From Mycobacterium sp. Root265 (lineage in GTDB: Bacteria > Actinomycetota > Actinomycetes > Mycobacteriales > Mycobacteriaceae), in contig NZ_LMJA01000002.1 in NCBI RefSeq assembly GCF_001428895.1, positions 318,268-382,267 on the forward strand: 64,000 nucleotides of DNA. The letters run 5' to 3'. Shown piece by piece: positions 13,249 through 60,466 of this stretch (positions within the stretch are counted from its first letter, which is position 1; each line of letters opens with the position of its first letter). The notes beneath the pieces are model-generated. The model worked only from the letters and a program-made list of their open reading frames with translations. It was not told the origin of the DNA and did not search any database. A program made the translations under genes and the position numbers.

Positions 13249-14628
13249 CTAGGCGACGGCGTCCGCCACCCCTGCTGTCGCCTGGAGGTCATCCACCGTC
13301 GCCCCGGCGGGCAGCGCGCTCAGCCCGAGATGATCCCGCAGGGTGTCGCCGGTGTACTCGGTGCGGAACAGGCCGCGACGCTGCAGTTCGGGGACGACAT
13401 AGTCGACGAAATCGTTGAAGGTGCCCGGGCTTTGGGCCGCCGACACCATGAAACCGTCGGCCTCGCCGGACGTGAAGGACTCTTCGATCTGATCGGCGAC
13501 CTGCGACGCGGTCCCGACGTACTGGGGCAGCAGCACGCCCTGGGCGTACCACTTGCCGATATCGCGCAGGGTCAGGTTGTCCCGGTTGGCGACGCGACGG
13601 GCGGTGTCGAACAGGCCCTGGGTGCCGGTCACCTGGACGTCCTCCACCGGTGCGTCCAGGTCGTACCGCGAGAAATCGTGATTGGTGTGCACGCTCAGCG
13701 TGATCAGCCCGGAGATCGGATCGGCCAGTTCGTTGTGGAAAGCCTGCTTCTCCCTGGCGATGGATTCGGTCTCGCCGATGAACGGGATGAAGGCCGGGAA
13801 GATCAGCACACCGTCCGGGTTGCGGCCGAAATTGCTTGCCCGCGACTTGATGTCGTCGTAGTAGGCCCGGCGGCCCTCCGGCGTCGGGTCGATCTCGAAG
13901 ATGGCCTCGGCCCAGCGGGCGGCGAAATCCCGTCCGGTGTTCGATGAGCCGGCCTGGATGAGCACCGGACGGCCCTGCGGTGAGCGCGGGACGTTCAGCG
14001 GACCGCGGGTGCGGAAGAACGTGCCCTCATGGTCGACCCGGCGGATCTTGTCCGGGTCGGCGAACACCCCGGTGGCCTTGTCCACCACCAGTGCATCCGG
14101 ATCCCACGACGACCACAGCTCCAGCGCGGTCCGCACGAACTCGTCGGCCCGCTCATAACGGAACTCGTGGTCCAGGTGGTCGTCCTGGCCGAAGTTCTGT
14201 GCCTCGCTGGCCGTCAATGAGGTGACGATATTCCAGGCGACCCGTCCGCGGGTGATGTGGTCCAGGCTGGCGAAGATGCGGGCCAGCTCGTAGGGGTGAA
14301 AGTAGGTCGCGGACTTGGTGATCGCCACGCCCAGCTTCGAGGTGACCGCGCCGATGCTGGCGGCCACGATCGACGGGTCCAGCGTCGCGGTGGCCTGGGT
14401 GCCGCGGCGCAGCGGCTCGGTGATGTCGGCGCCGTACTGGGCCGGGGCGGCCAGCAGGTCGGCGAAGAACACGAAATCGAACTTGCCGCGCTCCAGGATG
14501 CGGCCGATGCGGTGGTAGTACTCCGGGGTGGTGAAGTCGGTATCGCTGCCGGGGTGCCGCCACGCGGCGTGGCTGTGGGTGACCTGGGAGGCGATCTGGA
14601 AACCGCCGAGGTGCAGTTGCTTGGTCAT
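13249..14628 (-). CDS. FMNH2-dependent monooxygenase, NtaA/SnaA/DszA family
   Basis: 459 residues from the ATG at 14628, preceded by AAGGAGAG. The sequence has the luciferase-like TIM-barrel hallmarks of the NtaA/SnaA/DszA flavin monooxygenases (FVFFADLLAAP, RGRVAWNIVTS, PVLIQAGSS). Enzymes of this family use reduced FMN from a separate reductase to oxidise organosulfur, sulfonate or chelator substrates. The DszC-like gene just upstream on the same strand supports desulfurisation. It is about 50 percent alike by eye to the enzyme at 32863. No flavin reductase gene is seen in the window, so it must use one encoded elsewhere. Confidence 0.88.
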   Translation of the reverse strand: MTKQLHLGGFQIASQVTHSHAAWRHPGSDTDFTTPEYYHRIGRILERGKFDFVFFADLLAAPAQYGADITEPLRRGTQATATLDPSIVAASIGAVTSKLGVAITKSATYFHPYELARIFASLDHITRGRVAWNIVTSLTASEAQNFGQDDHLDHEFRYERADEFVRTALELWSSWDPDALVVDKATGVFADPDKIRRVDHEGTFFRTRGPLNVPRSPQGRPVLIQAGSSNTGRDFAARWAEAIFEIDPTPEGRRAYYDDIKSRASNFGRNPDGVLIFPAFIPFIGETESIAREKQAFHNELADPISGLITLSVHTNHDFSRYDLDAPVEDVQVTGTQGLFDTARRVANRDNLTLRDIGKWYAQGVLLPQYVGTASQVADQIEESFTSGEADGFMVSAAQSPGTFNDFVDYVVPELQRRGLFRTEYTGDTLRDHLGLSALPAGATVDDLQATAGVADAVA

Positions 14629-47792: not shown

Positions 47793-48389
47793 ATGAGTCG
47801 CCCCACCCTGCGCAACCTGGTCGATCTGCCCGCTACCCCGCCCGCGCTTCGGGATTCGGCGCTGGTGCTGGTGGACTGCCAGAACACCTACACCTACGGG
47901 GTGATGGAACTCGACGGCGTGCAGGCGGCCCTGGAGGAGACCGCCACACTGCTGGACCGGGCCCGCACCGCGGGCATCCCGGTCATCCACATCCAGCACA
48001 ACGGTGGGCCGGGCTCGCCCTACGACATCACCGCCGAAGTCGGCGCCATCGTCGATTCGGTGGCCCCGCGCGACGGCGAGCCGGTGGTGGTCAAGCAGTT
48101 CCCCAACTCGTTCGTGCAGACCGATCTCGATGAACGCCTCAAGGCCGTCGGCGCCACCAACCTGGTGCTGGCCGGGTTCATGACGCACATGTGCATCAAC
48201 TCCACTGCGCGTGGCGGGTTCAGCCTCGGTTACGCGCCGACGGTCGTCGCCAGTGCCACCGCGACCCGGCCGCTGCCCGGTATCAGTGGCGAGGTCGTAC
48301 CTGCGGCAACACTGCAAGCAGCCAGCCTCGCGGCGTTGTCAGATCTGTTTGCTGTCGTCGTCCCGGATGCTGCCGCGATACCGGACTGA
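47793..48389 (+). CDS. Cysteine hydrolase (isochorismatase family), 3' end supplied by the integrated element
   Basis: 198 residues. The catalytic triad of the family is visible: Asp28 (LVDCQN), Lys101 (VVKQFPNSF) and nucleophile Cys134 (THMCIN). Members hydrolyse isochorismate, nicotinamide or similar amides; the exact substrate here is unknown. The gene is the integration target of the 12-kb element. From about codon 130 onward the sequence is element-derived: the last 36 codons differ from the displaced host copy at 60338-60446 at about 30 of 109 bases and 8 residues, with lower GC. The enzyme therefore stays full length as a host-element hybrid. Confidence 0.88.
   Translation: MSRPTLRNLVDLPATPPALRDSALVLVDCQNTYTYGVMELDGVQAALEETATLLDRARTAGIPVIHIQHNGGPGSPYDITAEVGAIVDSVAPRDGEPVVVKQFPNSFVQTDLDERLKAVGATNLVLAGFMTHMCINSTARGGFSLGYAPTVVASATATRPLPGISGEVVPAATLQAASLAALSDLFAVVVPDAAAIPD
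48179..48280 (+). other. attL: left attachment site inside the hydrolase gene
   Basis: 102 bases shared with 60236-60337. Identical blocks are 48179-48205 (27 bp), 48207-48244 (38 bp) and 48249-48280 (32 bp), with single mismatches at 48206, 48245 and 48248. Similarity stops abruptly to the left of 48179 but continues at a lower level to the gene's stop codon on the right, so 48179 is the outer limit of the core. The crossover must lie in one of the blocks. The core includes the codon of catalytic Cys134. Confidence 0.9.
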
Positions 48390-48397
48390 CGGCACAG

Positions 48398-48449
48398 AAC
48401 CCGGCAAAAACCCGGCGGGCCGGTGACGGCCTGACCGGCGAGCAAACAC
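48398..48449 (+). other. Candidate arm-type integrase sites next to attL
   Basis: AACCCGGC at 48398, AACCCGGCGGGC at 48409-48420 and AGCAAACAC at 48441-48449. The last two recur in the same orientation beside attR at 60084-60095 and 60060-60068. Short direct repeats on both arms of attP are what tyrosine integrases bind with their N-terminal domain. Confidence 0.45.
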
Positions 48450-48506
48450 CAGAACCGGCGGTGTGTCGGCCGCGCACAGTGTGTGTTCACTGAGACGATG
48501 GTGTAA

Positions 48507-49280
48507 GTGGACTGCTGGGACTTGAACTACTGCGCCTACCCGTGGCCGGTTGAACTAGACGTGAGCGTTGACGGCGCGAACTGGGTGCCGTTCCTTGGTT
48601 CGCTACTGCTCTTCCTGGCCTCTCTCGCTGCGTCAGGCGTCGCGTGGTACGGCATCCGCAAGAGCAACGAGACGAACCGCGAAAGCAATAGAACTAACCG
48701 GCTTGCGATCGCTGCTGCTGATGACCGAGAAATTGAGAAGTGGCGTAGGGACCGGCTGCTCACGTTGTGCTCTGACGCCGTCGCAGCGGCGACAGAGTTC
48801 CGCATGGTCATGAGGAGTGCTAGGGACAGGGAGTCTGGCGCAATGGTCCCGGAAGGCCAGCTGGAGAAGTTCAGTGATGCTGTCCGCCTGCTGGCGGACA
48901 GCAGAGACCATCTGCTGCTCGTTGCTGCGTCTCGGCTAAGCGAGCTGAGTCAAGAGATGCTCGATGCCGCAAAGCCAGTCGTCAAGAAACAAGGGGAGGT
49001 GACTGCGGCGAAGGCGCGTATGGCGAAACAACTGAAGGACGACTATTTCGATCTGGTCGAAGTCGGTGCAGATAGCCCAGAGGAACTCAAGGAGCATGAA
49101 GAGGAGGTTCATGCAGAGTTGGTGGCGGAGCCACTAGCTGCCTTTGATGCCGCACTGGACGGCTTTGAAGCCGTCCGGGAGAGGTTCGTTCTAGAGGCGC
49201 AGCGGCAATTGAACGCGCCTACCCAAACAGCTGAACAACTTTCGGCGTCGGCGCAGCCACCGGCTCGCCAAGCGGATTGA
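48507..49280 (+). CDS. Membrane-anchored coiled-coil protein (element cargo)
   Basis: 257 residues from a GTG at 48507. A short external N-terminus with two Cys and three Trp (residues 2-27), one membrane helix (about 28-48), then a long charged helical cytoplasmic part with heptad-like patterns (about 50-240). It is the first gene inside the element and points opposite to the integrase, which it overlaps tail-to-tail by 62 bases. No enzyme motif is seen. Position at the element edge is typical of cargo such as superinfection or defence factors, which is inference only. Confidence 0.65.
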   Translation: MDCWDLNYCAYPWPVELDVSVDGANWVPFLGSLLLFLASLAASGVAWYGIRKSNETNRESNRTNRLAIAAADDREIEKWRRDRLLTLCSDAVAAATEFRMVMRSARDRESGAMVPEGQLEKFSDAVRLLADSRDHLLLVAASRLSELSQEMLDAAKPVVKKQGEVTAAKARMAKQLKDDYFDLVEVGADSPEELKEHEEEVHAELVAEPLAAFDAALDGFEAVRERFVLEAQRQLNAPTQTAEQLSASAQPPARQAD

Positions 49281-50553
49281 CCGGGGCCTCTTCGGGCAGG
49301 AAGTCCGCGTAAACCGCGAGCGTCATGTTCTTGTTTGCGTGACCGCACCACTTCGATACCTGCACGATGTTCACCCCGGCGGTTAGCAGCATGACGGCGA
49401 AGGTGTGGCGGGTGTCGTGCAGCCTGAAGCCATTGGTAGGCGGTGCCACCGTGCCGTCCTCGTTCAGCTTGCGGGCGGTGCCGACCGGGATACCGACCGC
49501 CTCGCAGGCATCGCGCAGAGTGCGCCGCGCGAAGGTGCTCAGCTCCACCGTCTCGGACCAATCGAGCTGCGCTGCGGCATGCTCACCTTTGCGGCGTGCA
49601 CCGCCCTGCAGCCGGTTCGGCCACAGCGGGGCGGCGGGGTTCGCCGGGTCGCCGTGCGTGGCGCTCAGGTAGGTGTGCATGCGTGCGGCGAGCCAGGGTG
49701 GCAGCGGCACCGTGCGCTCGTTCTCCGTCTTCGTGAGGCCGATGTCGAGCTTGCCGCCACGGCGCACGGCGGAGCGTTCCACGCGGATGCTGCCGGTCAC
49801 CCCACCGTCAGCGGTGTGCGTGAGGGTCAGGTCCGCCAGGGTCAGCGCTTGCAGCTCGCCTCGGCGCAGGCCGGTATAGCACAGGAACAGCACCATGAGT
49901 TCGTATGCGGGGTGACTGATTTCCCCCACCTTCGCGGCCAGCGTGGCGACCTGCGTCGGTGTGAGCGGGTGCGGCTTGAACTTGACCCGTGACCGGCGGC
50001 CAGCGGGTGCCCGGTCCACAGCATCGGCGGGTGAGGACTGGATTGCCCTGGCGCGCATCGCATATCGCAGCACCGCTGTCAGGGGCCACCACACGTTCCG
50101 CAGGCTGCGCGGGTTGAGTCTCGCAGCCAGGTCGGCGCGGAATTCTTCGCAGTCCACGAGCGTGATTAGCCCAACCGGCATCATTCCGAAGCGGGGGAGG
50201 ATGTCCACGTCGAGCAGACGGGTGTAGTTGTTCAGCGTCCCAATCTTCAGCGTGCCCTCGGCGTGGCGGCGGCGCTGCTCAGCCAGCCAGCCCGCCGCGT
50301 AGTGCGAGAACGGCATCGCTGCCGCCCGGCGCGCGTCGGAGACACCGGACGTGCCGCCGACCGTGTGGCGGGCGGCGTTCAGCTCGTCGCACAGTGTCTC
50401 GGCGTCGGCGCGGTTGCGGAACGTGGCCTGCCGTTTGTGGCGCTGCAGGTCGCCGTCTGTGTCGGGGAGGTACTCGTCCCAGTGCACCGTGAACGTGAAG
50501 ACAGGCTTGCCGTTCCGGCGCTGCTTCGTCTCATTGGCATCAATGTGAGCCAT
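49219..50553 (-). CDS. Tyrosine-type site-specific integrase
   Basis: 444 residues. N-terminal arm-binding region rich in basic and aromatic residues (TFTVHWDEYLPDTDGD), a SAM-like core-binding domain (about 75-185), and the catalytic domain with Arg in YTGLRRGEL, His379-x-x-Arg382 (HDTRHTF), His405 (CGHANKNM) and nucleophile Tyr415 (LAVYADF). It catalyses integration and, with an excisionase, excision of the element at the att sites. The gene points toward attL, and its start overlaps the stop of the serine recombinase by one base (TGATG), so translation is coupled. Confidence 0.93.
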   Translation of the reverse strand: MAHIDANETKQRRNGKPVFTFTVHWDEYLPDTDGDLQRHKRQATFRNRADAETLCDELNAARHTVGGTSGVSDARRAAAMPFSHYAAGWLAEQRRRHAEGTLKIGTLNNYTRLLDVDILPRFGMMPVGLITLVDCEEFRADLAARLNPRSLRNVWWPLTAVLRYAMRARAIQSSPADAVDRAPAGRRSRVKFKPHPLTPTQVATLAAKVGEISHPAYELMVLFLCYTGLRRGELQALTLADLTLTHTADGGVTGSIRVERSAVRRGGKLDIGLTKTENERTVPLPPWLAARMHTYLSATHGDPANPAAPLWPNRLQGGARRKGEHAAAQLDWSETVELSTFARRTLRDACEAVGIPVGTARKLNEDGTVAPPTNGFRLHDTRHTFAVMLLTAGVNIVQVSKWCGHANKNMTLAVYADFLPEEAPVNPLGEPVAAPTPKVVQLFG

Positions 50554-51221
50554 CAGGCAACCGCCGTTTCGGTTGTGCGCGTGGCACTCTGGTAGATCCT
50601 GCGCACCGTGGACGGATGCCAGGTGCTGCCGCCGCGAGGTGTCGTGATGCCCTCTGCGGCGAGTGCTTTCGCGATGCGGTCGAAGCTCATGCCGCCGTCA
50701 CGGTCCGCGATGATCCGGCGGACGACCGCCGTCGAGGCCTCGCGGGGTCGGCCAATGCGTTCACCTCGGGCCTTCTTCGCGGCCAGCGCGGCCGATGTGC
50801 GCTCGCTGGCAAGCTCGCGCTCGTACTGTCCGAAGTTGACAAGGTTCATCGCCACCATGCGGCCCGCCGCTGTCGTCAGGTCGACGCCGAGGTCGAGCAC
50901 AACAAGAGACCACCCCTGCGCTTGTGCCGATTCGATGATGTTGGCGGCGTTTACGATTGAACGCGACATTCGGTCGAGCTTCGCAACGATCAAGCCATCA
51001 GCTTGACCAGACGCGAGCAACTCCAGCGCTTTTCGCAGCTCCGGTCCGATGCTCTTGCCGCTGACGCCTTCGTCGGCCAGGTGCTCGACGGACCATCCTC
51101 GGCGCTCGGCCTCGGCGTTGATGGCGGCGCGCTGCGCTTCGAGGCCGTTGCGACTGTCGGCCTGCTCCTGCGTGCTGACGCGGCAGAATCCGATGAAGTG
51201 CTTCTGACCTGCATTTTCCAT
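50553..51221 (-). CDS. Small serine recombinase (resolvase/invertase type)
   Basis: 222 residues. The resolvase domain has catalytic Ser16 in FCRVSTQEQ, the conserved Arg region KLDRMSRS and the long E-helix region (YERELASERTSAALAAKKARG). A C-terminal helix-turn-helix (about 165-210; SFDRIAKALAAEGITTPRGG, HPSTVRRIYQ) binds DNA. It is much too short for a large serine integrase. Coupled to the tyrosine integrase by a TGATG overlap, it may resolve element multimers, invert a segment or take part in excision. Confidence 0.9.
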   Translation of the reverse strand: MENAGQKHFIGFCRVSTQEQADSRNGLEAQRAAINAEAERRGWSVEHLADEGVSGKSIGPELRKALELLASGQADGLIVAKLDRMSRSIVNAANIIESAQAQGWSLVVLDLGVDLTTAAGRMVAMNLVNFGQYERELASERTSAALAAKKARGERIGRPREASTAVVRRIIADRDGGMSFDRIAKALAAEGITTPRGGSTWHPSTVRRIYQSATRTTETAVA

Positions 51222-51379
51222 GCTCTCGGTCCTCTCGATAGGGCGGAAACGAACAGTTCGGCTTTACGCCTCATGCCCGAAGGTACGCCCCGCAACCTGC
51301 GGCTTCAACCGATGGACTACTGAAATAAGCTGTGCTGCAACCAATCCCATTGGTAGCTCTGGGAACTGCTGGGCTGGCA

Positions 51380-51598
51380 TCATATTCGGCGCAACTCGTC
51401 CTCCCAGTAGTCACGGCGGGTGCCGTCTGCAAACTGCACCGTGACCTCGATGTCCCCACCGCGCAGCACTGTTCGGCGCACGGTGCCGACCTGGCTGACG
51501 TGCGGGTCGTTCCACGCCAGCGGCGTGACCGCATCGCCGTACCCCAGTAGGGCCGCATCTGGTTGGGCGGGCTGCGGCTTGCCTGGCTGCGCGCTCAC
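51380..51598 (-). CDS. Small element protein of unknown function
   Basis: 72 residues from a GTG at 51598. A Gln/Pro-rich start is followed by a compact beta-rich stretch (TVLRGGDIEVTVQFADGTRRDYWEDELRRI) that looks like a small folded domain. It is in line with the other leftward genes of the element, 73 bases downstream of the zinc-motif gene. No family recognised. Confidence 0.5.
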   Translation of the reverse strand: MSAQPGKPQPAQPDAALLGYGDAVTPLAWNDPHVSQVGTVRRTVLRGGDIEVTVQFADGTRRDYWEDELRRI

Positions 51599-51671
51599 GG
51601 GTAGCCCCGTCCGTTCACCCGCCGACGGGCCGCTCTGGGCGCATATGGGCGCACAGGTGGCAAAGCGGCGG

Positions 51672-52325
51672 TCATTTGAACCGCTCGGACCGCACCCGGC
51701 GGGGCTGGCCTTGCTGCCGCCGGAGGTCAGCGGTGAACGCTGCGGCGTCTTCCATCGTCAGCAGCTCCCCGCCGGAGCTTGCGGGCGGCTGCGGCACACC
51801 GGCCCATGGTGGCGGTCGCAGCGGGCCATCGGGTTGGGCCGGCGGATTCGGGTCGGGGACCACTTCGGCGTCTACTGGTTCCGCAGGGTCGGCGGCGGTC
51901 AGCTCGCGGGGCGGTTCGATCAGGCCACGGCGGCGCTGGCTCTCGTCCAGCGGCACCCGTGCGATACCGGCCAGCATGCCCTGCCACGGCGCGGGCTCAG
52001 CGACGGACACCTCGACTGACGTCTTCTCCGTGATGCCGCCGAGCGCCAGGGCGTGTTTGATCGCGGCCAACCGAACGGCCTCGCTCTCGCCGCTGTCCGC
52101 AATTCCCAGCAATTGCTTCGCCATCCGGTCGGCGCTCTCTTCAAGTCGTTGGTGCGCGCGGCGTTTCACCTGCGGGGCGCGGCCACCGTGCGCGTCGCAG
52201 ACGTTCGCGCCTCGGCGGGCTTGGCGCTTGCAGCGGTCGCCGTTCTTGCGGTGCGCGGTGCAACGGGTGGCCGCATTGCCCTTCCAGCCGTCGTCCACGG
52301 GTACATCCGTCGATAGGTCGTTCAT
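51672..52325 (-). CDS. Zinc-motif protein resembling actinophage terminase small subunits
   Basis: 217 residues. Residues 21-50 carry a Cys4/His-type knuckle (C-x8-C-x9/10-C-x2-H, ending HGGRAPQVK) that I associate with actinobacterial phage-like terminase small-subunit or packaging proteins. It is followed by helices (RLEESADRMAKQLLGI, ESEAVRLAAIKHAL) and a long Pro/Ala/Asp-rich tail. In a satellite such a protein could redirect a helper phage packaging motor to its DNA. A Shine-Dalgarno AAGGAA precedes the ATG. Assignment is from pattern memory, so moderate. Confidence 0.65.
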   Translation of the reverse strand: MNDLSTDVPVDDGWKGNAATRCTAHRKNGDRCKRQARRGANVCDAHGGRAPQVKRRAHQRLEESADRMAKQLLGIADSGESEAVRLAAIKHALALGGITEKTSVEVSVAEPAPWQGMLAGIARVPLDESQRRRGLIEPPRELTAADPAEPVDAEVVPDPNPPAQPDGPLRPPPWAGVPQPPASSGGELLTMEDAAAFTADLRRQQGQPRRVRSERFK

Positions 52326-52348
52326 CGGTACAGGTTCCTTCCGGTCTC

Positions 52349-52552
52349 GGGAAACTCTCTATGTTGTTTCCTCCCTAAAGGTCGGAAACAACACTTTCCG
52401 GGTGCGGGAAACATGCGGAAAGTGTGGAAACAAAGTGCAGCACAGTCGTTTTCAAAATCGCGCATCTCGCAACTCTGGGCGGAAACACCGGAAACAAGCA
52501 CTTGAACTGCGTATTTACTGTGCATTTTGGCTCCGTTTCGGGGCTTGTTTCC
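52349..52552. other. Candidate replication origin: GGAAACAA iteron cluster
   Basis: Five exact copies of GGAAACAA occur within 189 bases: 52384-52391, 52426-52433 and 52490-52497 on plus, 52364-52371 and 52545-52552 on minus. Near copies lie at 52349, 52408 and 52481. Two perfect inverted repeats are included (GTTGTTTCC/GGAAACAAC at 52363/52384 and ACACTTTCCG/CGGAAAGTGT at 52391/52416). The region is richer in A and T than its surroundings and sits just downstream of the primase-helicase genes, as the origin of staphylococcal pathogenicity islands lies next to rep. Confidence 0.65.
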
Positions 52553-53726
52553 GCCGGTCGGAAAGTCTGACGACATCTTCGTCGGCCTCCGGTTCGCCGT
52601 CGCCGAGCGTGTGGATCTTCGCCGAACTGATCTTCTGAATCCTGATGTAGTCGCGGTGCTGAGCCCGCGCGTACCAGCTCTGGCACCTCGCTTGACCGCG
52701 CCCGGTCATCTCCCAACCCAGCTCACCGAAAAGCTCGCCCTTGTTGGGATTCCGGCCATCGGCCTGCCAGCGTGCCACGACATCGCGGGCTCGCAATGCT
52801 TCGCGCTCGGCTTCTAGATCGGTGCGATTCGCCCGCCCGGTTGCTGACAGTGTCCGCGTGGCGACGGTGTAGCCGACCTCAAAGTCCGCAACGTCTACGT
52901 CCCGGCCGACCGCTTTGAAGTGCCTAGGGCCGCGCCGGTCTGGCTGGCCGTTGCTGTCGGTGCCGAGCCGGAAAGCGATGTTGACATCGGGGCAGTCCAT
53001 CATCGCGCTCGCACCACGGGCGCGGTCACCTGCTTCTTCCGAGAACCCTGTGTGATGCGCGATGAACATGCCTCGCAACTTCGCCTCGCGCATGATCGTT
53101 TCCAACACCACCCAGAACGCGTTGTACGCAGCGTTGATGTCACCGCCACCCCATGAGCCAGGGTTGAACAGCTTCGACAGCGGATCCCATACCGCATAGG
53201 TGATCCCATGATCGACTAGCCATTTGATGATCCACTCGACGGCCTGCGGATTGCTGAGATCCATTGCGCCAAAGCCATGTTCGCGAGCGTGATAGAACCA
53301 CACCCGCTTGCCTGCGTCTTCGGGCAAGTTGAGGTCTGCGCACCATTGCAGCATCTGCCGCTTCCCAAGCTCCATATTGAAGTACCCAACTTGCTCAAGG
53401 GTTCCGAAGTTGACGTCGAAGCGGCCGAGGAACGGATCGCCGGTGACGAGTGATTGCACAAGGTTGAGCGCGAGCGTTGTCTTGCCCGACTTCGCTGCAG
53501 CGTTCACCTGCACCACCCCAGACGGCGCAAGGTCTCTCACGATCCAATCGACCTCGGGAAGGTCACCGGCAAGCTCTTCGGCAAGTGACACAGAGGGCTC
53601 CGGCGGGTGCCACCTGGCCTGCGCACGCTCCTGCCGCACCATCTCGCGAGCGAGTGTTGCCATCCGTTCGCCGTTGAGGTAGTCCGCGAACTTGTCGTCG
53701 TCGGCGAAGTCGTAGAGGTCAGTCAT
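52515..53726 (-). CDS. RecA-like/RepA-type replicative helicase
   Basis: 403 residues from the ATG at 53726, overlapping the primase stop by four bases. Walker A (AAAKSGKTTLALN, about 66-78), Walker B-like strand (YAVWDPLSKL) and a conserved MFIAHHTGF segment identify the AAA_25/RepA-like hexameric helicase class. A C-terminal part (about 285-395) contains a winged-helix-like region (NKGELFGELGWEMTGRGQ). It should unwind DNA at the element's origin after primase loading. The 3' end of the gene holds the last iteron of the candidate origin. Confidence 0.85.
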   Translation of the reverse strand: MTDLYDFADDDKFADYLNGERMATLAREMVRQERAQARWHPPEPSVSLAEELAGDLPEVDWIVRDLAPSGVVQVNAAAKSGKTTLALNLVQSLVTGDPFLGRFDVNFGTLEQVGYFNMELGKRQMLQWCADLNLPEDAGKRVWFYHAREHGFGAMDLSNPQAVEWIIKWLVDHGITYAVWDPLSKLFNPGSWGGGDINAAYNAFWVVLETIMREAKLRGMFIAHHTGFSEEAGDRARGASAMMDCPDVNIAFRLGTDSNGQPDRRGPRHFKAVGRDVDVADFEVGYTVATRTLSATGRANRTDLEAEREALRARDVVARWQADGRNPNKGELFGELGWEMTGRGQARCQSWYARAQHRDYIRIQKISSAKIHTLGDGEPEADEDVVRLSDRRKQAPKRSQNAQ

Positions 53727-54955
53727 CGGGCGGTCCGTCCATACTTGGGGCGTCTGGGTGTTCGGGGTTGGGCCGGCCGCGGGCGCAACCATCCGCCTCC
53801 TGCCGTTACGGGCATGCGGTCCTCGCCCCAGTCCTCCACGAGGTCGGCGTAAGGATCGTCATCGTTGGCATCGAGTGCCGCCGCAATCGCACCTTCGGCC
53901 ATGCGGTCAAAGTCGTGTTCGTCCAGCTCGCCGCCGCGCTCTGTGTAGGCCGCGATGGCTGCGGTCCTGATTGCCTCGTAGGCCGTCGTCCACGGGTAGT
54001 AACCGCGCACGGCGTCATGCGCGGCTCGCCACAGCGCGTCAAGGCAGGCATTGCGGGTGCCGCCGGTCTTGCCGGTCGCGAGCACGGTCGCGACGACGCC
54101 GCGCAGGATATTCGGGTACTGGTCCAGCGTGTACTCATCAGCGAAGGCCGTCACGTCAGCGGAGGTCACAGCTTGCCCACGCCTGCGGGATCGCTTCGGC
54201 TTGTCATCTCGCAGCGCCGCGCACCACGCCGCTGGCAGCTCGGGCAGCTCGTCGGGGCGTGGCATCGCCTCAACGGGCAACGGTGCGCCGCCTGGGCCGT
54301 AGAGCTGATAGGTCGCGCCCGTGTGATGCACTCCGCCAGGTGCCACGGCGCAGCGGTGATGGCGTTGGATCACCTCAACGTCGCCGCCGCCGTTCAGCAC
54401 ACCGACCCCGACCCAATCGGCAGGCACGCGGTAGAACCGGATACCGCTGCCGGTGTCGTAGTCGCGTGCAGTCGTTCGCCAGGTTGGCGGCAGGTCGCCG
54501 TAGAGCTGTTCGTGGCTGCGCACCGTCGTCAGCCCGTGCTTCGGGCCGTACTGATCAACGTCGATCCCGGCGACACCGACCGGCATGCGGAGAGCGATGT
54601 TCAGCACGCCGCGCTCTGGCGATCCGTTGACGATGCGCCGCGCGATGCGTTCGGGATCTTCAAGCACGTCTGCGAGCGGTCGGTCCACGCCGGTCCATCC
54701 GCTGACCTTCGTGTCCCATGGCACCTTGCCGGGGCGGTCGTCTGGCTTGTGCGGGTTGATCCGCCCTACCGCGATGACACCCCAGCCGGCGCCCATGATT
54801 GCCCACGCTGCTCTGCGGTACTCGTCGGCATCCATTCCGGCGATCTCGACCAGAAGTTCGCCGTTACCAATGTCTTCCACGTACGCGCCGTAGTCGGCGA
54901 GGTCGTCGCGTAACGGCGGCTTGACCTGCTTGGTGGCGGGTGTGTCGGGTATCAT
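53723..54955 (-). CDS. Bifunctional primase-polymerase (Prim-Pol) of the element
   Basis: 410 residues. N-terminal Prim-Pol domain (about 40-235) with the metal-binding DxD in VAGIDVDQYG, the SGxRF segment (GSGIRFYRV) and the downstream catalytic region (EVIQRHHRCAVAPGG). A C-terminal helical region (about 260-370) follows. Such proteins make primers for plasmids, phages and satellites and are usually fused or coupled to a helicase, as here by a four-base overlap. Start at the ATG at 54955. Confidence 0.85.
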   Translation of the reverse strand: MIPDTPATKQVKPPLRDDLADYGAYVEDIGNGELLVEIAGMDADEYRRAAWAIMGAGWGVIAVGRINPHKPDDRPGKVPWDTKVSGWTGVDRPLADVLEDPERIARRIVNGSPERGVLNIALRMPVGVAGIDVDQYGPKHGLTTVRSHEQLYGDLPPTWRTTARDYDTGSGIRFYRVPADWVGVGVLNGGGDVEVIQRHHRCAVAPGGVHHTGATYQLYGPGGAPLPVEAMPRPDELPELPAAWCAALRDDKPKRSRRRGQAVTSADVTAFADEYTLDQYPNILRGVVATVLATGKTGGTRNACLDALWRAAHDAVRGYYPWTTAYEAIRTAAIAAYTERGGELDEHDFDRMAEGAIAAALDANDDDPYADLVEDWGEDRMPVTAGGGWLRPRPAQPRTPRRPKYGRTAR

Positions 54956-54992
54956 CTGATCAGTTCCGTTCTGGCGATCGAGGACTAGCGAT

Positions 54993-55024
54993 AACCCGGC
55001 TCAACGTCTCAGGTGAGCCGGGTT
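54993..55024 (-). terminator. Terminator between excisionase-like gene and replication genes
   Basis: Arms AACCCGGCTCA (54993-55003) and TGAGCCGGGTT (55014-55024) pair perfectly over 11 bases with a 10-base loop. On the minus strand it follows the excisionase-like gene directly and precedes the primase gene, so it may separate the two modules. There is only a weak T-tract. Confidence 0.6.
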
Positions 55025-55031
55025 TCGCGGT

Positions 55032-55262
55032 TTATACGGCTTGTGCTTCTTGGTGTTTGGGTTCCACGCGGCAACTGTCGATGTACTCGATCAGCGCTGA
55101 GCGACTGGTGAACCTGGCTCTCCCGATCTTGACGAACGCAATGCGCTGCTGGCGGATTGCGAACCGAGCCGCGTTCTCGCTGATCGGCGTACCCAGCTCC
55201 GCCGTCGCCTCGCTGATCTCCACCTCGCGATAGGGAATGCTCCACTCGCTGACTTGATCCAT
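55032..55262 (-). CDS. Excisionase / AlpA-like winged-helix DNA-binding protein
   Basis: 76 residues. A MerR-like winged helix of the Xis/HTH_17 type: helix-turn-helix GTPISENAARFAIRQQR and a wing FVKIGRARFTSRSALIEYI. Proteins of this size direct excision by the tyrosine integrase or activate early element genes. It is followed by a terminator and stands between the small upstream genes and the replication operon. Confidence 0.75.
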   Translation of the reverse strand: MDQVSEWSIPYREVEISEATAELGTPISENAARFAIRQQRIAFVKIGRARFTSRSALIEYIDSCRVEPKHQEAQAV

Positions 55263-55397
55263 CGCCCTGTCTCCTGTTCCTGTCGGTTAGGCCGCTTGCG
55301 GGCCTGCGATGAATCTACGCCCGTCGGCCGTTCCACGGCTCGCGTAAGCGGCGTTAATTGCGTTGTCGCGCTTGATAACCCGACGAAGGTTATTCGG

Positions 55398-55709
55398 TCA
55401 ACCTGTCGTCCCAGCTCCGCGCCGTACTCGTGTTCGCCTTGTGCTGCTGACCTGAATTGTCACGCTGTCCCTCCCCGCAGCACCTTCATCGGTGTCTGCA
55501 GGTGGCTCAGTGGCGGCGTCAGGGGTCGGTGCGGCGGGCTCCTGCTCGGGTATCCGCCGTTGTCCGACGCGGGTGCGGATGTGGCCGGGCAACGCCTTGT
55601 CCGGGTCGATCATCTGCGCGGCCAACCGGGCGGCCTGCTCGGCATCCCGCCGCCGGGTTTCGCCAGGGTCCGCGAGCTGCCCGTTCGGGGCCATTCTTCT
55701 CGGGCTCAT
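55398..55709 (-). CDS. Small charged element protein
   Basis: 103 residues, ATG at 55709 overlapping the stop of the upstream gene by four bases. It is rich in Arg, Ala, Pro and Glu; a short helical part (ETRRRDAEQAARLAAQMI) is followed by a disordered tail. No domain recognised. The coupling makes it a co-product of the 286-residue protein. Confidence 0.55.
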   Translation of the reverse strand: MSPRRMAPNGQLADPGETRRRDAEQAARLAAQMIDPDKALPGHIRTRVGQRRIPEQEPAAPTPDAATEPPADTDEGAAGRDSVTIQVSSTRRTRVRRGAGTTG

Positions 55710-56566
55710 TGGTCGTCACCGGCTTGCGCTGCGCGGATTGCGCGAACGCGTACGACGAACTTCTCACCGGCCGCGTCGGCCCTGGCGCTGGCGGGTATCT
55801 CGGTGAGGATCTCACCGCCTTCGGATACCTCGCGTAGCCAGGCAAGGCAGCGACCGCAGATCTCCACAGCCACCGTGACCGGCGGGTGCGAGGACACCGT
55901 GACGTAGGCCGTCGGCCCTACCTCGTTGCGCATCGGCGGCTCATAGCCGCTCGTGTTCAGGCAGTCGGGTGCATCGCCGATGTCGCATCGGCCGGTTGTC
56001 CACCGCACGCCCCACAGCCAACGCCAGTCATCGCGGATCTCGCGGAGATCCCGCAGCACGTGCACCTTCTCCGGCTCGCCCATGAACACGAGCTGCGGCA
56101 CGGCTTCACTGGCGGTGTCGTCACTGAATCGCGCCCGCCGCACAACATCGGCGATCCGCTCAAAGCCTTGAGGGTTGGTGTCCGGGTCAAACAGCCGGTT
56201 GACGTTGGCTGCGTCGAGGTAACGGTCGAATGACTCGGCCACCGCCTCCGATGCGCGGATCGCGGTGAGTGATTGGTCAACGTTGGGTACATGGTTCTTC
56301 CTCTCGGTCGGGCTCGGGCCGCGGCGCGTACTCGTGGGCCGGCTGGTGATGAAGCGGTACAGCTCGGCCGTGCTGTAGCACGCCCGCCCGCAGACGATGT
56401 GCGCCTGAAGCTGGCCGCGCCTGCGTGCGTTCGTCAGATAGGTGGCGGTCACAGTCACACCATGACCACCAAGCCAATCCACGGCGGCCTCTGTGGACAG
56501 CGTTGGTAGATGATTGATTTCGTCCGCCAAGCGCGGGGGCGCTGGCGGCGGAGGTGGCTTGCTCAT
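55706..56566 (-). CDS. Element protein with N-terminal helix-turn-helix-like domain
   Basis: 286 residues. After a proline-rich start, residues 25-78 look like an excisionase-type winged helix (STEAAVDWLGGHGVTVT, TNARRRGQLQAHIVCGR, YSTAELYRFITSRP). The rest is an alpha/beta region with a CGRC pair (EICGRCLAW) near residue 240 and no recognised fold. It is the first leftward gene from the central divergent promoter region, so it may be an early regulator. Two CTCGCATA direct repeats (56600 and 56613) lie upstream as possible operator. Confidence 0.6.
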   Translation of the reverse strand: MSKPPPPPAPPRLADEINHLPTLSTEAAVDWLGGHGVTVTATYLTNARRRGQLQAHIVCGRACYSTAELYRFITSRPTSTRRGPSPTERKNHVPNVDQSLTAIRASEAVAESFDRYLDAANVNRLFDPDTNPQGFERIADVVRRARFSDDTASEAVPQLVFMGEPEKVHVLRDLREIRDDWRWLWGVRWTTGRCDIGDAPDCLNTSGYEPPMRNEVGPTAYVTVSSHPPVTVAVEICGRCLAWLREVSEGGEILTEIPASARADAAGEKFVVRVRAIRAAQAGDDQ

Positions 56567-56599
56567 TCACTGAGCGTGGCACACTGAATGCCGCGATGC

Positions 56600-56620
56600 C
56601 TCGCATAAGGTGCTCGCATA
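56600..56620. repeat. CTCGCATA direct repeat in central divergent region
   Basis: Two copies of CTCGCATA at 56600-56607 and 56613-56620, 13 bases apart, in the 183-base gap between the leftward early genes and the rightward capsid-like gene. One-helical-turn spacing suggests a regulator site. No classical -35/-10 pair is obvious in the gap. Confidence 0.35.
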
Positions 56621-56749
56621 GTGCACGTAAGGGATTGCAAGGTAAACGCATTGGTGCCATGCGGCCCAGTTGTTAAGCGCGGCCTCGCGTAGACCGGCGT
56701 ACGTTCAGATCAACAGCGGCATTGTGTCGCAGCGAGATCGGAGGACATC

Positions 56750-57871
56750 ATGGCCGGGAAGTTTGGCGTCGCCAACAGCGCAACCGTGTTGCGGGACAGG
56801 AACGACCGCGTCCCGCTTGACCAGTTGTGGCAGGAGATTCAGGACGCCGTGGCGCTCTACTCGGCGGAAGTCGATGTGTTGACCGGGCTGCTCACCTACC
56901 GCACGACCAACGCCGCCGACGCCATGCCCCAAAGCCTCACGCCCGGTCGTCTCGAGATCGCATCAGAACATGGTGTCCCCATTGCGATTCGACCTGAGGC
57001 TCCGCATGACATTCTGGGCTACACCCTGCGTGACTACGACATCGCATCGCGGCTCACGCGCTTCTTCTGCAGGGACGCGTCGGCCTCTCAGATTCGCGCC
57101 GCTGTGACCAGGATGCTCGAGGCCGACCGTGCAACCGTGCAGGCGACCGTCCTGCAGCGGATGTTCTCACCTGCGCAGGAACGCAACGAGTTCGCGCACC
57201 AGTGCCTTGGCGCGTACGACGGCACGAGCAACAGCAAGCCGCCGGATTTCATGGGCAAGACGTTCACCAACGGTCACGCTCACCAGATTGCGACGGGTTC
57301 AACCGATTTGGACTCAGAGGATCTAGAGCTGGCAGCGAAGCACGTGACCGAGCACGGTTACGGCCTCGGCGGCGGTCGCGGCCAGCTCGTCGCGATGTTC
57401 AACCCGGAGGACGTCGAGGACTCCGCCCTGACCTCCTGGCGCGCCGGAGTCACCAACGCCAACAGCAAGAAGGCCCGGTTCGATTTCATTCCGTCCGGTT
57501 CGGCTCCCGCGTTCTTGACCGCCGAACATCGAGTTGGGGCCGCGCCCCCAGATGACATCGACGGTGTGCCGGTGCTCGGCAGTTACGGCAAGACGTTCGT
57601 CGTGTCGTCGGAGCTGATCCCGGCGGGCTACTTCGCGATTGCTTCCACGCACGGTGTGGATCACCAGGACAACGCCATCGGCTTCCGTGAGCACCCGGAC
57701 GAGAGCTGGCAGGGCTTCCGCATGATCGAGGGCAACGTCGAACGCGATTACCCGATCATCGAGAGCTACGGCATGCGCTCGTTCGGTGTCGGCGTTCGGC
57801 GCCGCGGCGCGTTCGTCGTCTGCCAGCTCACCGCCGGTACCTACACCGCACCAACCGAATTCGCTCTGTAG
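56750..57871 (+). CDS. HK97-type major capsid-like protein
   Basis: 373 residues. The overall pattern resembles actinophage major capsid proteins: an N-terminal helical part (RVPLDQLWQEIQDAV, LLTYRTTNAADAMPQ), a middle segment (PPDFMGKTFTNGHAHQ, HVTEHGYGLGGGRGQLV) and a C-terminus (ESYGMRSFGVGVRRRGAFVV, TYTAPT) that forms the axial domain. It has no protease or scaffold gene beside it. It faces right, opposite to all replication genes. A capsid gene alone suggests the element builds its own, possibly smaller, heads and borrows tails and packaging from a helper phage. Assigned from recall, not from a search. Confidence 0.7.
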   Translation: MAGKFGVANSATVLRDRNDRVPLDQLWQEIQDAVALYSAEVDVLTGLLTYRTTNAADAMPQSLTPGRLEIASEHGVPIAIRPEAPHDILGYTLRDYDIASRLTRFFCRDASASQIRAAVTRMLEADRATVQATVLQRMFSPAQERNEFAHQCLGAYDGTSNSKPPDFMGKTFTNGHAHQIATGSTDLDSEDLELAAKHVTEHGYGLGGGRGQLVAMFNPEDVEDSALTSWRAGVTNANSKKARFDFIPSGSAPAFLTAEHRVGAAPPDDIDGVPVLGSYGKTFVVSSELIPAGYFAIASTHGVDHQDNAIGFREHPDESWQGFRMIEGNVERDYPIIESYGMRSFGVGVRRRGAFVVCQLTAGTYTAPTEFAL

Positions 57872-57880
57872 GCCGTCGCG

Positions 57881-58105
57881 ATGTCCTATCCGCAGAACCC
57901 GTACCTGCCGCCGCCACCTCGTGACCCCGACCGCCCTGGCGATGACGCGTCAGAGCTGGGTGTGCCGCGCGGGCATCAGGAACGGTTGGCGCGCAAGCGC
58001 ATTGGCCCTGAACATGGCGGGCCGTACCGTCCGAAGGCCCCCGCGATGAACCCGGACGGCCCGCAGCATCAGAGCGGTTGTCCAGGGCGGCGGCGCGCCC
58101 CGTAG
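57881..58105 (+). CDS. Small proline-rich protein downstream of the capsid-like gene
   Basis: 74 residues, ATG nine bases after the capsid-like stop and therefore in the same transcript. Composition is dominated by Pro, Arg, Gly and Asp (YPQNPYLPPPPRDPDRP), with no predicted fold. It could be a head-decoration, scaffold or linker peptide, or a non-functional tail; only the spacing supports coding. Confidence 0.45.
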   Translation: MSYPQNPYLPPPPRDPDRPGDDASELGVPRGHQERLARKRIGPEHGGPYRPKAPAMNPDGPQHQSGCPGRRRAP

Positions 58106-58187
58106 ACATAGCGGCGGCGCTGGCACAGGTGGGCAACCCGCCTGAATTCTAGCGGTGTCAGTGCTGTCGCTATTACGTTGGTGCGCA

Positions 58188-59081
58188 CTACTTTTTCTTG
58201 CGGCGGTTACTCTTCGTCGTCTTCTTCGGTTGCTGGCGCTGTCCACGGCGATCAGCCCGGTTGCCCGCGCCCGGCGACGGTGGCGGTCCGAAGAGCCTGC
58301 GGTAGCCCTCGGTGTTCATGCCCATCGCCTCCTTGTACCACTCGTAGTAATCCTCCGCAGCCGTTTGGTATTCGCTGAGCGCCTCGGCGTTGAGATCCTT
58401 GATTCTCTGCACAAACCAGTTGAAGAACTCGCTGGCGGTGTTGACGTAGCTCTCGATCACCGGCCCGAGATCGAACCGTTCGTCCTTCGCCCCCAGGTAT
58501 GCCTTTGCGGGTGCTGTCCACCCGTCCCACTCCAAGAGCGCGGACCGGTCGAGTGTCAGCCGGTTAATCATCATGCTCGGTCGGTCGCGTCCGCCACTGA
58601 ACGTTGTGCTGATGCCGGGCAACGGAGTTGATCGGTGCGTGCAGTAGTTGCGCAGCTCGGTCATGAACTCGGCCTCGCCGGTTTCGAACGATGCCTTACG
58701 GTGCTCCGTGTACTCCCCAAGCTCGAATTCGGACCTCTTGCCCCAACAGTGCCGTATGACAACTCGTTGCGCTTCGATCAGTGAGTACACCGATGTGAGG
58801 TAGTTGTGCAGGTAGCGCACCAACTCCTTCTCGAACTCGTCGGTGGTGTCTCTTGAGAATCCCCGGCGACCGGTCAGGAACTCGGCGGCGTGGCCCGACA
58901 GCTCCTGGGCATTCCGGTGCATCACGTGGCCCGCCCGCCCGAGGGCCTCCACGTCCAACTTCAACTGGAAACCCGGCATTTCCTCAAGCTCGGCTTTGCG
59001 CCGGTCGTTCTCGATGCTGGTCGGATTCGTCCACGTTTCCAGCACGGTGGTCTCGTCGTCGGTGGTCTGCTCGTCCGTCAT
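58188..59081 (-). CDS. HEPN-motif protein, candidate defence ribonuclease (element cargo)
   Basis: 297 residues. A helical N-terminal region (about 70-115; VRYLHNYLTSVYSLIEAQRVVIRH) precedes the motif Arg144-Asn145-Tyr-Cys-Thr-His149, which fits RNxxxH, the catalytic signature of HEPN RNases found in Abi, toxin-antitoxin and other defence proteins. A beta-rich part and another helical region (about 215-260) follow, and the tail is very basic (Lys/Arg-rich, residues 270-297), as in RNA-binding proteins. It ends a three-gene leftward operon and is convergent with the capsid unit. No antitoxin of known family is seen. Confidence 0.6.
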   Translation of the reverse strand: MTDEQTTDDETTVLETWTNPTSIENDRRKAELEEMPGFQLKLDVEALGRAGHVMHRNAQELSGHAAEFLTGRRGFSRDTTDEFEKELVRYLHNYLTSVYSLIEAQRVVIRHCWGKRSEFELGEYTEHRKASFETGEAEFMTELRNYCTHRSTPLPGISTTFSGGRDRPSMMINRLTLDRSALLEWDGWTAPAKAYLGAKDERFDLGPVIESYVNTASEFFNWFVQRIKDLNAEALSEYQTAAEDYYEWYKEAMGMNTEGYRRLFGPPPSPGAGNRADRRGQRQQPKKTTKSNRRKKK

Positions 59082-59090
59082 CGGCGGTCC

Positions 59091-59723
59091 TTACCTTGTT
59101 GCCCGTGGTCGCTCGGGAGCTGGCACATAGAGCTTGTCGATGCTCTCGACGCTGTCCGGCGATTTCCCAAGCGCGACAAGGTAACTCTTCACGAAATCTA
59201 CGCCGTACCCGGCGTCCATCAGGATGTCGATTGGTGGGTAATATTTCGCGGCGAAGAAGCTTTCACGCTGCCGGGCGTACCCGTTGTATCCGGCATCGTG
59301 GAGATCCTGCAGCGCCTCCGCGATGTCGTCGGGCACGCCGGGATGACGCTCGCCCGTAACAACGTCCAGCGCCTTCGTTGCCGCCGCCCACCCGGTCACG
59401 TCGCGCATGATGGGCGTCGCCACACCGAAGATTTGGCCGTGAGCCAGTTTCAGCCCAAGGCCCAGTTCCTTCAGCAGCGGATGCACCGCCACAACAGGTC
59501 CACCGCGCTCAGGTCGCTTGCCGCGCGCGGTGCCGATGTTCTTGTTGGCGCTGTAACTCTGGTGGTACGCCTCGTGCTGCACCGACATGTGCGGCAGCAG
59601 CAGCGCACGGCGCGCATAGGTGGCGGTGTCGCTGTGCTCGCAGATGTGGTTCTCCACGGCGTCGAATGCAAAGTCCAGTCCGCGCTCGCTGCCGTCAGCC
59701 CACACGTTGTCAGTTGGTGCCAT
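59091..59723 (-). CDS. Cargo-operon protein of unknown function
   Basis: 210 residues from the ATG at 59723; the longer open frame to 59987 overlaps the upstream gene and looks like a shadow. Soluble and helix-rich with conserved-looking His/Tyr clusters (PHMSVQHEAYHQSYSANKN) and a C-terminal part (ILMDAGYGVDFVKSYLVALG). It ends nine bases before the start of the HEPN-motif gene, so the two are probably made together and could act as a pair. Family not recognised. Confidence 0.65.
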   Translation of the reverse strand: MAPTDNVWADGSERGLDFAFDAVENHICEHSDTATYARRALLLPHMSVQHEAYHQSYSANKNIGTARGKRPERGGPVVAVHPLLKELGLGLKLAHGQIFGVATPIMRDVTGWAAATKALDVVTGERHPGVPDDIAEALQDLHDAGYNGYARQRESFFAAKYYPPIDILMDAGYGVDFVKSYLVALGKSPDSVESIDKLYVPAPERPRATR

Positions 59724-59778
59724 GTCTGTAATTGTCCCAGCGGTCACCGACAACTTTTCGGCAGGCGCGCCGAGCGGG

Positions 59779-60024
59779 TCAACCGTGCAGGATGTCCGCG
59801 ATCCGGCGCTCAGCGGCGGCGTGCACGGCGGCCAGGGCGGCGGGGGAGCGGTCCACGAGGGCGTATCGGTACAGCGCGGCCTCGGTGTCGGTGTCCCCGA
59901 GCCCGGAGCACAGCACAACCCCGTCGCCCGCCTCGGCCCGCGCGATGTGCCACGCCAGCACCGCGCGCAGCTCGTCCACGAGCTCATCGCGTGTGAGCTG
60001 GCGGGCCGGGGCGGTGACGGACAT
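59779..60024 (-). CDS. Small helical protein, first gene of cargo operon
   Basis: 81 residues, ATG at 60024. Mostly helical (TRDELVDELRAVLAWHIARA, AALAAVHAAAERRIADIL), acidic overall. It begins the leftward operon next to attR and is followed after 55 bases by the 210-residue gene. Small helical first genes often encode regulators or antitoxins of the following gene, but no motif proves it here. Confidence 0.55.
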   Translation of the reverse strand: MSVTAPARQLTRDELVDELRAVLAWHIARAEAGDGVVLCSGLGDTDTEAALYRYALVDRSPAALAAVHAAAERRIADILHG

Positions 60025-60059
60025 ACAGCCGTTTATACGCTCGCCCGGCGAACCGGGTC

Positions 60060-60095
60060 AGCAAACACGTTCACCCCGGCGAGAACCCGGCGGGC
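60060..60095 (+). other. Candidate arm-type integrase sites next to attR
   Basis: AGCAAACAC at 60060-60068 and AACCCGGCGGGC at 60084-60095, matching sites beside attL in the same orientation. See the attL arm entry. Confidence 0.45.
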
Positions 60096-60155
60096 TGCGG
60101 GAATGCCACCTGCGGGTTCTCGGGCGATGCAATGCCAGCTCATCGGGCTGGTCCG

Positions 60156-60205
60156 ATAACCCTGATCGGGATATTCCCATGTCAGACCGGTTCTTTCAGG
60201 GTTAT
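60156..60205. repeat. 10-bp inverted repeat beside attR
   Basis: ATAACCCTGA (60156-60165) and TCAGGGTTAT (60196-60205) are perfect complements 30 bases apart, 31 bases from the core. They may be excisionase or integrase arm sites. The same pair was not found near attL. Confidence 0.45.
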
Positions 60206-60235
60206 TCAGTGCGGTTTCGCTGCAGGTCGTGAGAG

Positions 60236-60337
60236 CATGACGCACATGTGCATCAACTCCACCGCGCGTGGCGGGTTCAGCCTCGGTTACGCGCCGACGG
60301 TGGTTGCCAGTGCCACCGCGACCCGGCCGCTGCCCGG
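60236..60337 (+). other. attR: right attachment site
   Basis: Matches attL over 102 bases with mismatches at 60263, 60302 and 60305. To its left the sequence is element DNA with no similarity to the hydrolase gene; to its right is the displaced host 3' end. Confidence 0.9.
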
Positions 60338-60446
60338 CGTCGGTGGCGAAACCGTGTCCGCGGCCGCGCTACAGTCCGCCAGCCTGGCCGCGCTCAATGA
60401 TCTGTTCGCCGTCGTCGTCCCCGACGCCGCCGCCGTGCCGGACTGA
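60237..60446 (+). pseudogene. Displaced 3' end of the hydrolase gene
   Basis: Codons from MTHMCIN to the stop at 60446, in frame with the host gene, but without promoter or N-terminus. It encodes the last 69 residues, differing from the element-supplied version by eight residues, all after the core. High GC and host-like codons identify it as the original end. An ATG at 60237 could start a 69-residue fragment lacking Asp28 and Lys101, so no activity is expected. Confidence 0.88.
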
Positions 60447-60466
60447 GGGCTTCGGCACCGCCATAA

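Follow-up and report, generated by a model that had tools for sequence, protein, structure and literature searches.

Phage satellites of the SaPI, P4 and PLE types make small heads at the expense of their helpers by remodelling the helper capsid, and SaPI-type elements carry a small terminase subunit (TerS) of their own. Capsid-forming phage-inducible chromosomal islands (cf-PICIs, such as EcCI2 with capsid structure 9gyi) produce their own head protein and need a helper; they are described as encoding portal, protease, connectors and both terminase subunits, and as taking only tails (PMC10690885). The same source presents the Streptomyces satellites Mulch and Flayer as actinomycete elements with their own capsid gene, both terminase subunits, a portal and a scaffold, and as being without obvious replicases (PMC10690885). 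For Mycobacterium, regions combining integration machinery with a capsid gene were proposed in 2023 (mSystems) as candidate PICIs, among them phiRv1 and phiRv2; 62% were also recognised by SatelliteFinder, diverse capsid types were pooled, some regions carry terminase and scaffold genes, and the account given there does not demonstrate helper induction (PMC10654092). A survey of 2014 (BMC Genomics) labelled as prophage-like the element phiMmcs_2, for which it assigns only HNH, capsid and integrase genes; other elements in it carry portal and terminase genes (PMC3986857). Here we analyse a 12,057-bp element at positions 48179-60235 of a 64,000-nt stretch of the Mycobacterium sp. Root265 genome (contig NZ_LMJA01000002.1, positions 318,268 to 382,267), the whole of which is called the window. 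The element is very likely an integrated phage satellite; that it is packaged in small heads of its own protein with the help of phages related to Patience is likely but unproven. To the whole explanation, an integrated satellite of Patience-like phages with its own TerS and capsid and with small heads of fixed capacity, we give a probability of about 0.72.

Like the candidates of 2023, the element lies in Mycobacterium, falls under their definition by integration machinery and capsid, and has no helper shown; members of its family may well be among them, and sections 9 and 14 of that paper single out neither a capsid-plus-TerS family nor a fixed length nor Patience-like helpers (PMC10654092). 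phiMmcs_2, set beside the element by its description only, likewise joins a capsid gene to an integrase (PMC3986857). An earlier note on this DNA had called such a satellite new for mycobacteria, which is too strong in view of these two reports. The kind of satellite is already known, and what looks new is the architecture limited to capsid plus TerS, the length law and the helper assignment, none of which appeared in searches of the open-licence PubMed Central literature for capsid-bearing satellites of mycobacteria or actinobacteria. The proposed division of labour with the helper is not among the known ones that we found: whereas cf-PICIs, Mulch and Flayer bring further head and packaging genes, only capsid and TerS are recognised in this element, and whereas SaPI, P4 and PLE remodel a helper capsid, it supplies a complete capsid protein for the small heads proposed here.

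On either side of the element lies the 3′ end of an isochorismatase gene; the two copies form a 215-nt direct repeat of 84% identity with exact runs of 27, 38 and 32 nt (Table 1), and a full-length gene can be read in two ways, through the left attachment (att) site or by joining the left flank to the right copy. Within these borders we find what a PICI in the broad sense has, namely an integrase with chromosomal att sites, a replication module of its own (primase and helicase) and a small terminase assigned by homology and gene context. The genes for integrase, serine recombinase, TerS homologue, helicase, primase and helix-turn-helix (HTH) protein lie on one strand and the capsid gene is divergent. 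The satellite logic proposed in the earlier note is well supported, with integration, own replication, own TerS and capsid, and no other virion gene found. Among 118 genomes of the genus, the att gene appeared as one contiguous match across the junction in 41 others (closest G096, 91%), with at most four candidates scored per genome and matches under about 80% being possible paralogues. These are probably empty sites; they are not provably so, because an occupied gene also looks contiguous through its attL and few candidates were scored. In the same sample G082 is the only genome listed, apart from the source genome, with another 3′ copy at a distance of about 12 kb, and a related element (L081) lies between its copies; in G232, another element (L032) is inserted in the same isochorismatase gene. 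A full phage at this att site in relatives would have spoken for a prophage remnant. Both genomes instead hold elements of the same type, and neither L081 and L032 nor the other loci, with the exception of the phage contig L161 described below, yielded a portal, large terminase or tail gene.

The capsid gene or a relative of it was matched in 63 of 248 genomes of the genus, the source genome included and several as fragments only, so that with about a quarter of the sampled genomes the family may form a major and largely unread part of the mobilome; in an order-level sample, 14 of 397 genomes had matches (four candidates scored per genome). For comparison we assembled 140 loci: 59 regions from 59 of the 75 match rows of the genus (a sixtieth region, L091, is described below), 80 named loci out of at least that many found by profile in the genome collection, and the window. 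The two sets overlap in strains, so that counts over 140 loci, or over 123 as used below, include duplicates; near-identical capsids were dropped before tree and size counts, and many of the 140 loci end at contig ends. Genera among the profile loci include Mycobacterium and its split genera, Gordonia, Rhodococcus, Williamsia and Dietzia, as well as Hoyosella, Micromonospora, Nocardioides, Microbacterium, Pseudonocardia and Aeromicrobium. The recurring gene order is integrase, serine recombinase, TerS, primase/helicase, small conserved proteins, divergent capsid, a small protein resembling gp1 of Patience relatives, and variable cargo. Variations on this order are a different integrase or the lack of a serine recombinase in some groups, and a capsid gene that is not divergent in some non-mycobacterial elements. 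Across the 140 loci, family profiles recovered TerS most often (113), followed by integrase (108), primase or helicase (98), serine recombinase (94) and the gp1-like protein (77). The single lone capsid gene that the earlier note had singled out is true of the element, yet it is no peculiarity: it is the rule for the family across Actinomycetota. Four genomes (G007, G082, G144 and G231) each hold two separate full-length or nearly full-length capsid loci, and two satellites can therefore share one cell. The capsid gene or the element is broken or truncated in L156 (Mycobacterium lepraemurium), L059 and L084-L087.

Comparison of 19 proteins or alternative open reading frames (ORFs) of the window with PHROGs returned no large terminase, portal, protease, tail or lysis family, in agreement with what had been noted before, and no scaffold gene was found in the element. 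The absence of tail and lysis genes was seen in these scans, in a comparison with the lysis and tail proteins of phage Cuke (first loci), and with a phage panel. The panel consisted of portal, protease, scaffold, minor capsid, connector and tail-tube proteins of 12 Patience-like phages, the large terminase of two of them and terminase-region genes of five other phages, and was compared with the ORFs of the 140 loci. Beyond TerS, it found a full structural set only in L161, a contig of a Patience-like phage that was assigned to an acidobacterial bin and has portal and tail genes; if this binning is right, the phage group reaches beyond Actinomycetota. Stray matches were a cargo hydrolase in L057 and a spurious match on the TerS of L085. 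As a control, the same panel was applied to the 37 IMG/VR contigs that have this capsid. It detected structural genes in 35 of them, some shorter than 6 kb, and the test is therefore sensitive; the remaining two contigs are satellites inside isolate genomes. In two long IMG/VR entries (L197 and L198, 55 and 62 kb) the fetched part has satellite genes only and no panel match, suggesting over-extended viral predictions. Finally, the ORFs left unassigned in 30 elements (184 with a length of at least 110 aa, taken up to 3.5 kb beyond the capsid gene) were compared with PHROGs and matched methyltransferases, primases, an esterase, further enzymes and uncharacterised families, with no head, packaging or tail family among the matches listed (25 of 30 and 24 of 24 families, the other five being single-member). 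With L161 set aside, the portal, head protease, head-tail connectors and large terminase that cf-PICIs encode were found neither in the window scans nor in the 140-locus panel nor among the 184 ORFs of relatives. The genome itself contains an HK97-type prophage region (L091; G000 contig 25, 195000-214999) with large terminase, portal, protease, tail tube, tape measure and endolysin. It is not an obvious helper, its capsid being of a different family (phrog_10). A search of the genome with PF03354 gave no large terminase, and it must be regarded as insensitive because phrog_9 matches one in L091.

As in cf-PICIs, the major capsid protein is the element's own, and by both sequence and fold it belongs with the capsids of Patience and Adjutor. 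It matched 152 of 50,697 phage records (27-37% identity among the matches listed) and the PDB sequences 8saj (1.5e-63) and 8giu (8e-52). An AlphaFold model built from 36 sequences (pLDDT 85.9, pTM 0.82) had chains of Adjutor and Patience as its top four Foldseek matches (E 5e-30 to 4e-28), the next one being at 6e-10, which supplies the HK97 match that the earlier note had asked for; the cf-PICI capsid 9gyi, at 1.7e-7, is far weaker than Adjutor at 5e-30. The putative metal site of Patience (His198, His200, Glu223 and His224; PMC10635136) is kept, these residues aligning with H176, H178, E201 and H202 of the window capsid, and histidine occupies the three His columns in 69%, 100% and 70% of 93 non-phage capsids. 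A single branch of a quick maximum-likelihood tree, with an SH-aLRT of 100, separates 43 phage capsids (12 isolates, 30 from IMG/VR, and L161) from these 93 other genome capsids, a few of which are on short contigs; the window capsid is a long branch inside the non-phage group. Capsid dN/dS (NG86) had a median of 0.125 and a maximum of 0.48 over 105 non-independent pairs. Purifying selection and the tree split both argue against recent prophage decay. Two capsid positions divide phage from other capsids at more than 80% on each side. One of them is the E-loop hinge position, Val73 in Patience, where 98% of the 43 phage capsids have Val and 85% of the others have Thr; the Patience E-loop is described as straightening from Val73 and bridging the chasm, and the difference is only a lead. 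A search of the plasmid collection with the capsid gave no match, and a scan of viral contigs with the window capsid alone found nothing; the later profile scan yielded the 37 IMG/VR loci.

The protein encoded at 51672-52325 is predicted to be a TerS homologue by homology and gene context. Its tblastn matches include gene 1 of Microbacterium phage Golden and one gene of Microcystis phage Mae-JY09, each of which adjoins the large terminase gene upstream and overlaps its start; in its other matches (Mimi, SM23 and Montesquieu) the gene is not beside the large terminase. Run against 3,591 phage ORFs, the family profile matched Golden gp1 at 2e-12 and, at 8e-12 to 3e-7, genes in Patience, Candle, Phreeze, Onyinye, Mopey and Cuke. 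Two of these, in Onyinye and Cuke, carry a small-terminase annotation, and the other four are in the same position. These six phages are among the seven mycobacteriophages of the panel; the left end of the seventh, DrLupo, was outside the scan, which covered Suzy, Wollypog and Triscuit in part. The small protein after the capsid gene (family c6), present in many elements, carries the motif S-E-F-S-W-G-x-G. A pattern of this motif, written after seeing the family so that its positional enrichment is descriptive only, occurs in 70 of 123 loci on the strand of the capsid gene and no more than 1 kb downstream of it; the scanned stretches hold five further occurrences, and 50 of the 123 loci had no match. 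The family profile matched Cuke gp86 (2e-7) and gp1 of Onyinye (5e-4) and Mopey (8e-4), Phreeze gp1 reaching only 0.09. The gp1 family occurs in 48 phage records, 47 of them of Mycobacterium. Among the 40 matches listed, the phages that were recognised belong to the Patience-like capsid group. An identity of c6 with the Patience gp4 stabiliser was considered and rejected (no PDB match at E≤10, about 0.5 bits to gp4). Patience-like actinobacteriophages (Patience, Adjutor, Cuke) have the capsid fold and the putative metal site in common with the element, the mycobacterial ones also the TerS family and several the gp1-like protein. They differ from it in being complete phages, with genomes of about 55-72 kb that encode portal, large terminase, scaffold, minor capsid protein and tail, and their capsids form a separate group in the tree. 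Patience-like mycobacteriophages are the likely helpers, as judged from these common genes, and candidates (Patience, Adjutor, Cuke and kin on M. smegmatis) are already in phage collections.

In 32 elements, that of the window included, borders could be set from exact repeats lying outside the integrase at one end and outside the capsid gene at the other. Of these, 26 are gene-complete (integrase, TerS, primase or helicase, and full capsid), and 20 remain after removing capsids more than 95% identical; the gene-content filter removed L059, L065, L069, L080, L085 and L166, of which L069 and L080 have normal length. The 20 elements measure 12,377 ± 592 bp (11,616-13,604), in fetched stretches that left room for lengths of 15.6 to 20.7 kb, and 15 of them have a tRNA gene at the repeat. 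The core, from the att site to the end of the capsid gene, and the cargo each vary far more than the total, and their lengths compensate each other (r=-0.81). Shuffling cores and cargoes gave a mean standard deviation of 1,352 bp, with none of 20,000 shuffles as tight as the observed lengths and, for capsids less than 70% identical (n=17), 1 of 20,000. Compensation is strong in the 11 of these elements without a serine recombinase (r=-0.90). We read the constant element length as a packaging limit.

The proposed course of events would be as follows. Upon infection by a Patience-like phage, the element would excise and replicate itself, and its TerS would direct the large terminase of the phage to satellite DNA. 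The element's capsid protein, with the scaffold and protease of the phage, would form small heads of about 12.4 kb capacity around the phage portal, and phage tails would finish the particle; the fixed element length would be the mark of the small head. A length-to-architecture model gives 11.8 kb (8.1-17.1) for a head of triangulation number T=3 and 18.0 kb (13.2-24.5) for T=4, and P4 is reported with 11.6 kb in a T=4 head (PMC7762592). The heads of Patience (70.5 kb) and Adjutor (64.5 kb) are T=7, and a T number divisible by three is described as incompatible with their split hexamers (PMC10635136). Because of this clash, a T=3 head would need changed hexamers, whereas a T=4 head would not. 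Tentatively, and with more doubt than belief, we extend the proposal to an old and large lineage of actinobacterial satellites that supplies only the head lattice protein and the packaging selector, with which portal, scaffold and motor of a Patience-like helper build a much smaller head. If this is true and the head is T=3, the architecture would be one so far unseen in tailed phages; if it is T=4, the split-hexamer rule is kept. Related capsids forming heads for about 55-72 kb and apparently for 12 kb would be a natural pair with which head-size determination is directly testable, as is the question of why small T=3 heads of tailed phages go unseen.

Of the other explanations, the concatemer model keeps the satellite and changes its head. 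In it, concatemers would be packed in full-size helper heads, the capsid protein merely biasing or reinforcing assembly. PICMI satellites reportedly pack concatemers, and five units of 12.4 kb would make a 62-kb headful. PICMI satellites are described as leaving capsids unremodelled (PMC10803314). We nonetheless judge this quite unlikely, as a unit length constant within 5% is not obviously fixed in that way and a whole capsid gene is left unexplained where helper heads already exist. The same length bears on the idea of a mobile anti-phage device, whose capsid and TerS would poison assembly and packaging of infecting Patience-like phages and which would spread by other means. Satellites often block their helpers. 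Such blocking, for which PLE is given as an example (PMC10690885), as well as the presence of only those structural parts that could interfere and the variable cargo, would fit this idea; poisoning alone, on the other hand, leaves the fixed 12.4 kb unexplained and gives no account of integrase, replication module and TerS all together. As a full explanation it is unlikely; as an activity, poisoning can coexist with a satellite that is packaged in small heads.

Both capsid and TerS are phage-derived and some copies are truncated, as would be expected of eroded prophages of the Patience group that happen to retain the capsid gene. Erosion, however, would leave varied remnants with capsids scattered among those of phages, whereas we observe a fully supported split between phage and other capsids, strong purifying selection on the capsid, a conserved core gene order, a near-constant length of gene-complete elements and, L161 set aside, no portal or tail gene in the sequence covered for 139 loci and so far no intermediate forms, all of which makes such erosion improbable. 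Least credible is a protein-shell compartment of the host, or a device resembling a gene-transfer agent, derived from the capsid gene: encapsulins with the HK97 fold do exist in mycobacteria (8wol in Foldseek), yet this gene resides, together with those for TerS and primase, in elements that have an integrase and occupy many different att sites, and no conserved enzyme cargo was recognised.

Several observations weigh against the satellite of Patience-like phages that we favour. The length compensation is not significant in elements with a serine recombinase inside their borders (n=9, r=-0.42, p=0.26), and it is weak once decayed elements are included (33 rows, r=-0.31, shuffle p=0.045); several relatives are decayed or truncated. 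No free 12-kb satellite contig was present among the 37 IMG/VR contigs. The ORF scan of relatives was limited to at least 110 aa, and many loci are cut by contig ends. As to the helper, the TerS profile matched 6 of the 12 Patience-like phages and nothing in the scanned terminase regions of Gordonia phage Wojtek and Microbacterium phage Ajin, its best match (Golden) is outside the group, and the structural model of TerS is too poor to use (pTM 0.37). The gp1-like protein of the window is a divergent copy that fails the motif pattern. Finally, the element is known here from sequence alone, with no induction, excision, particle or helper observed. What speaks for it from the same source is the insertion by an integrase at the 3′ end of a host gene, the primase and helicase, and a TerS and a capsid in common with mycobacterial Patience relatives.

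Table 1. Genes and attachment sites of the element and its host gene (window coordinates).
Feature	Position	Strand	Evidence and remarks
Isochorismatase-family host gene	47793..48389	+	PF00857 4.6e-36; reading frame intact; 3′ end from element (attL)
attL, left copy of 215-nt repeat	48179..48393	.	84% to 60236-60450
Cargo protein, 257 aa, no family	48507..49280	+	PHROG, Pfam, PADLOC, NCBIfam: no match
Tyrosine integrase	49219..50553	-	phrog_1 3e-52; PF00589 6e-14; 70% to L032
Small serine recombinase	50553..51221	-	PF00239 3e-32; phrog_125 3e-41
TerS homologue (predicted) with zinc-finger-like HGG motif	51672..52325	-	context and profile evidence; direct PHROG matches weak
AAA_25 / RepA-like replicative helicase	52515..53792	-	PF13481 7e-15
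Prim-Pol DNA primase	53723..54955	-	PF09250 2.6e-9; phrog_1156 5e-27
HTH_17-like protein, excisionase candidate	55032..55262	-	PF12728 6e-4, under curated cut-off
Conserved core protein, cluster c5, C-terminal part c10-like (judged by eye)	55706..56566	-	other elements also have c5 and c10 just before the capsid gene, on its upstream side
Major capsid protein, Patience-like HK97 fold	56750..57871	+	phrog_3990 3.4e-79
Small protein after capsid gene, family c6, gp1-like, divergent copy	57881..58105	+	aligned with family
Cargo protein, 297 aa	58188..59081	-	uncharacterised phrog_12680 7.7e-7; R-X4-H in sequence
Cargo protein, 298 aa	59091..59987	-	relatives L089 (70% over 220 aa), L081 (43% over 204 aa)
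attR, host gene's original 3′ end	60236..60450	.	both copies listed in own genome; G082 likewise has second 3′ copy

Among the cargo genes, the 297-aa protein had been put forward as HEPN cargo. This was not confirmed: it matched no HEPN family in Pfam, PADLOC or NCBIfam, the PDB gave nothing useful, and a HEPN nature is possible, as a putative assignment, from the R-X4-H motif alone. The family of the 298-aa cargo protein was also found at positions 7291-8088 of L089 and 19147-19995 of L081, and from its occurrence at these two other loci it seems that cargo is exchanged between elements.

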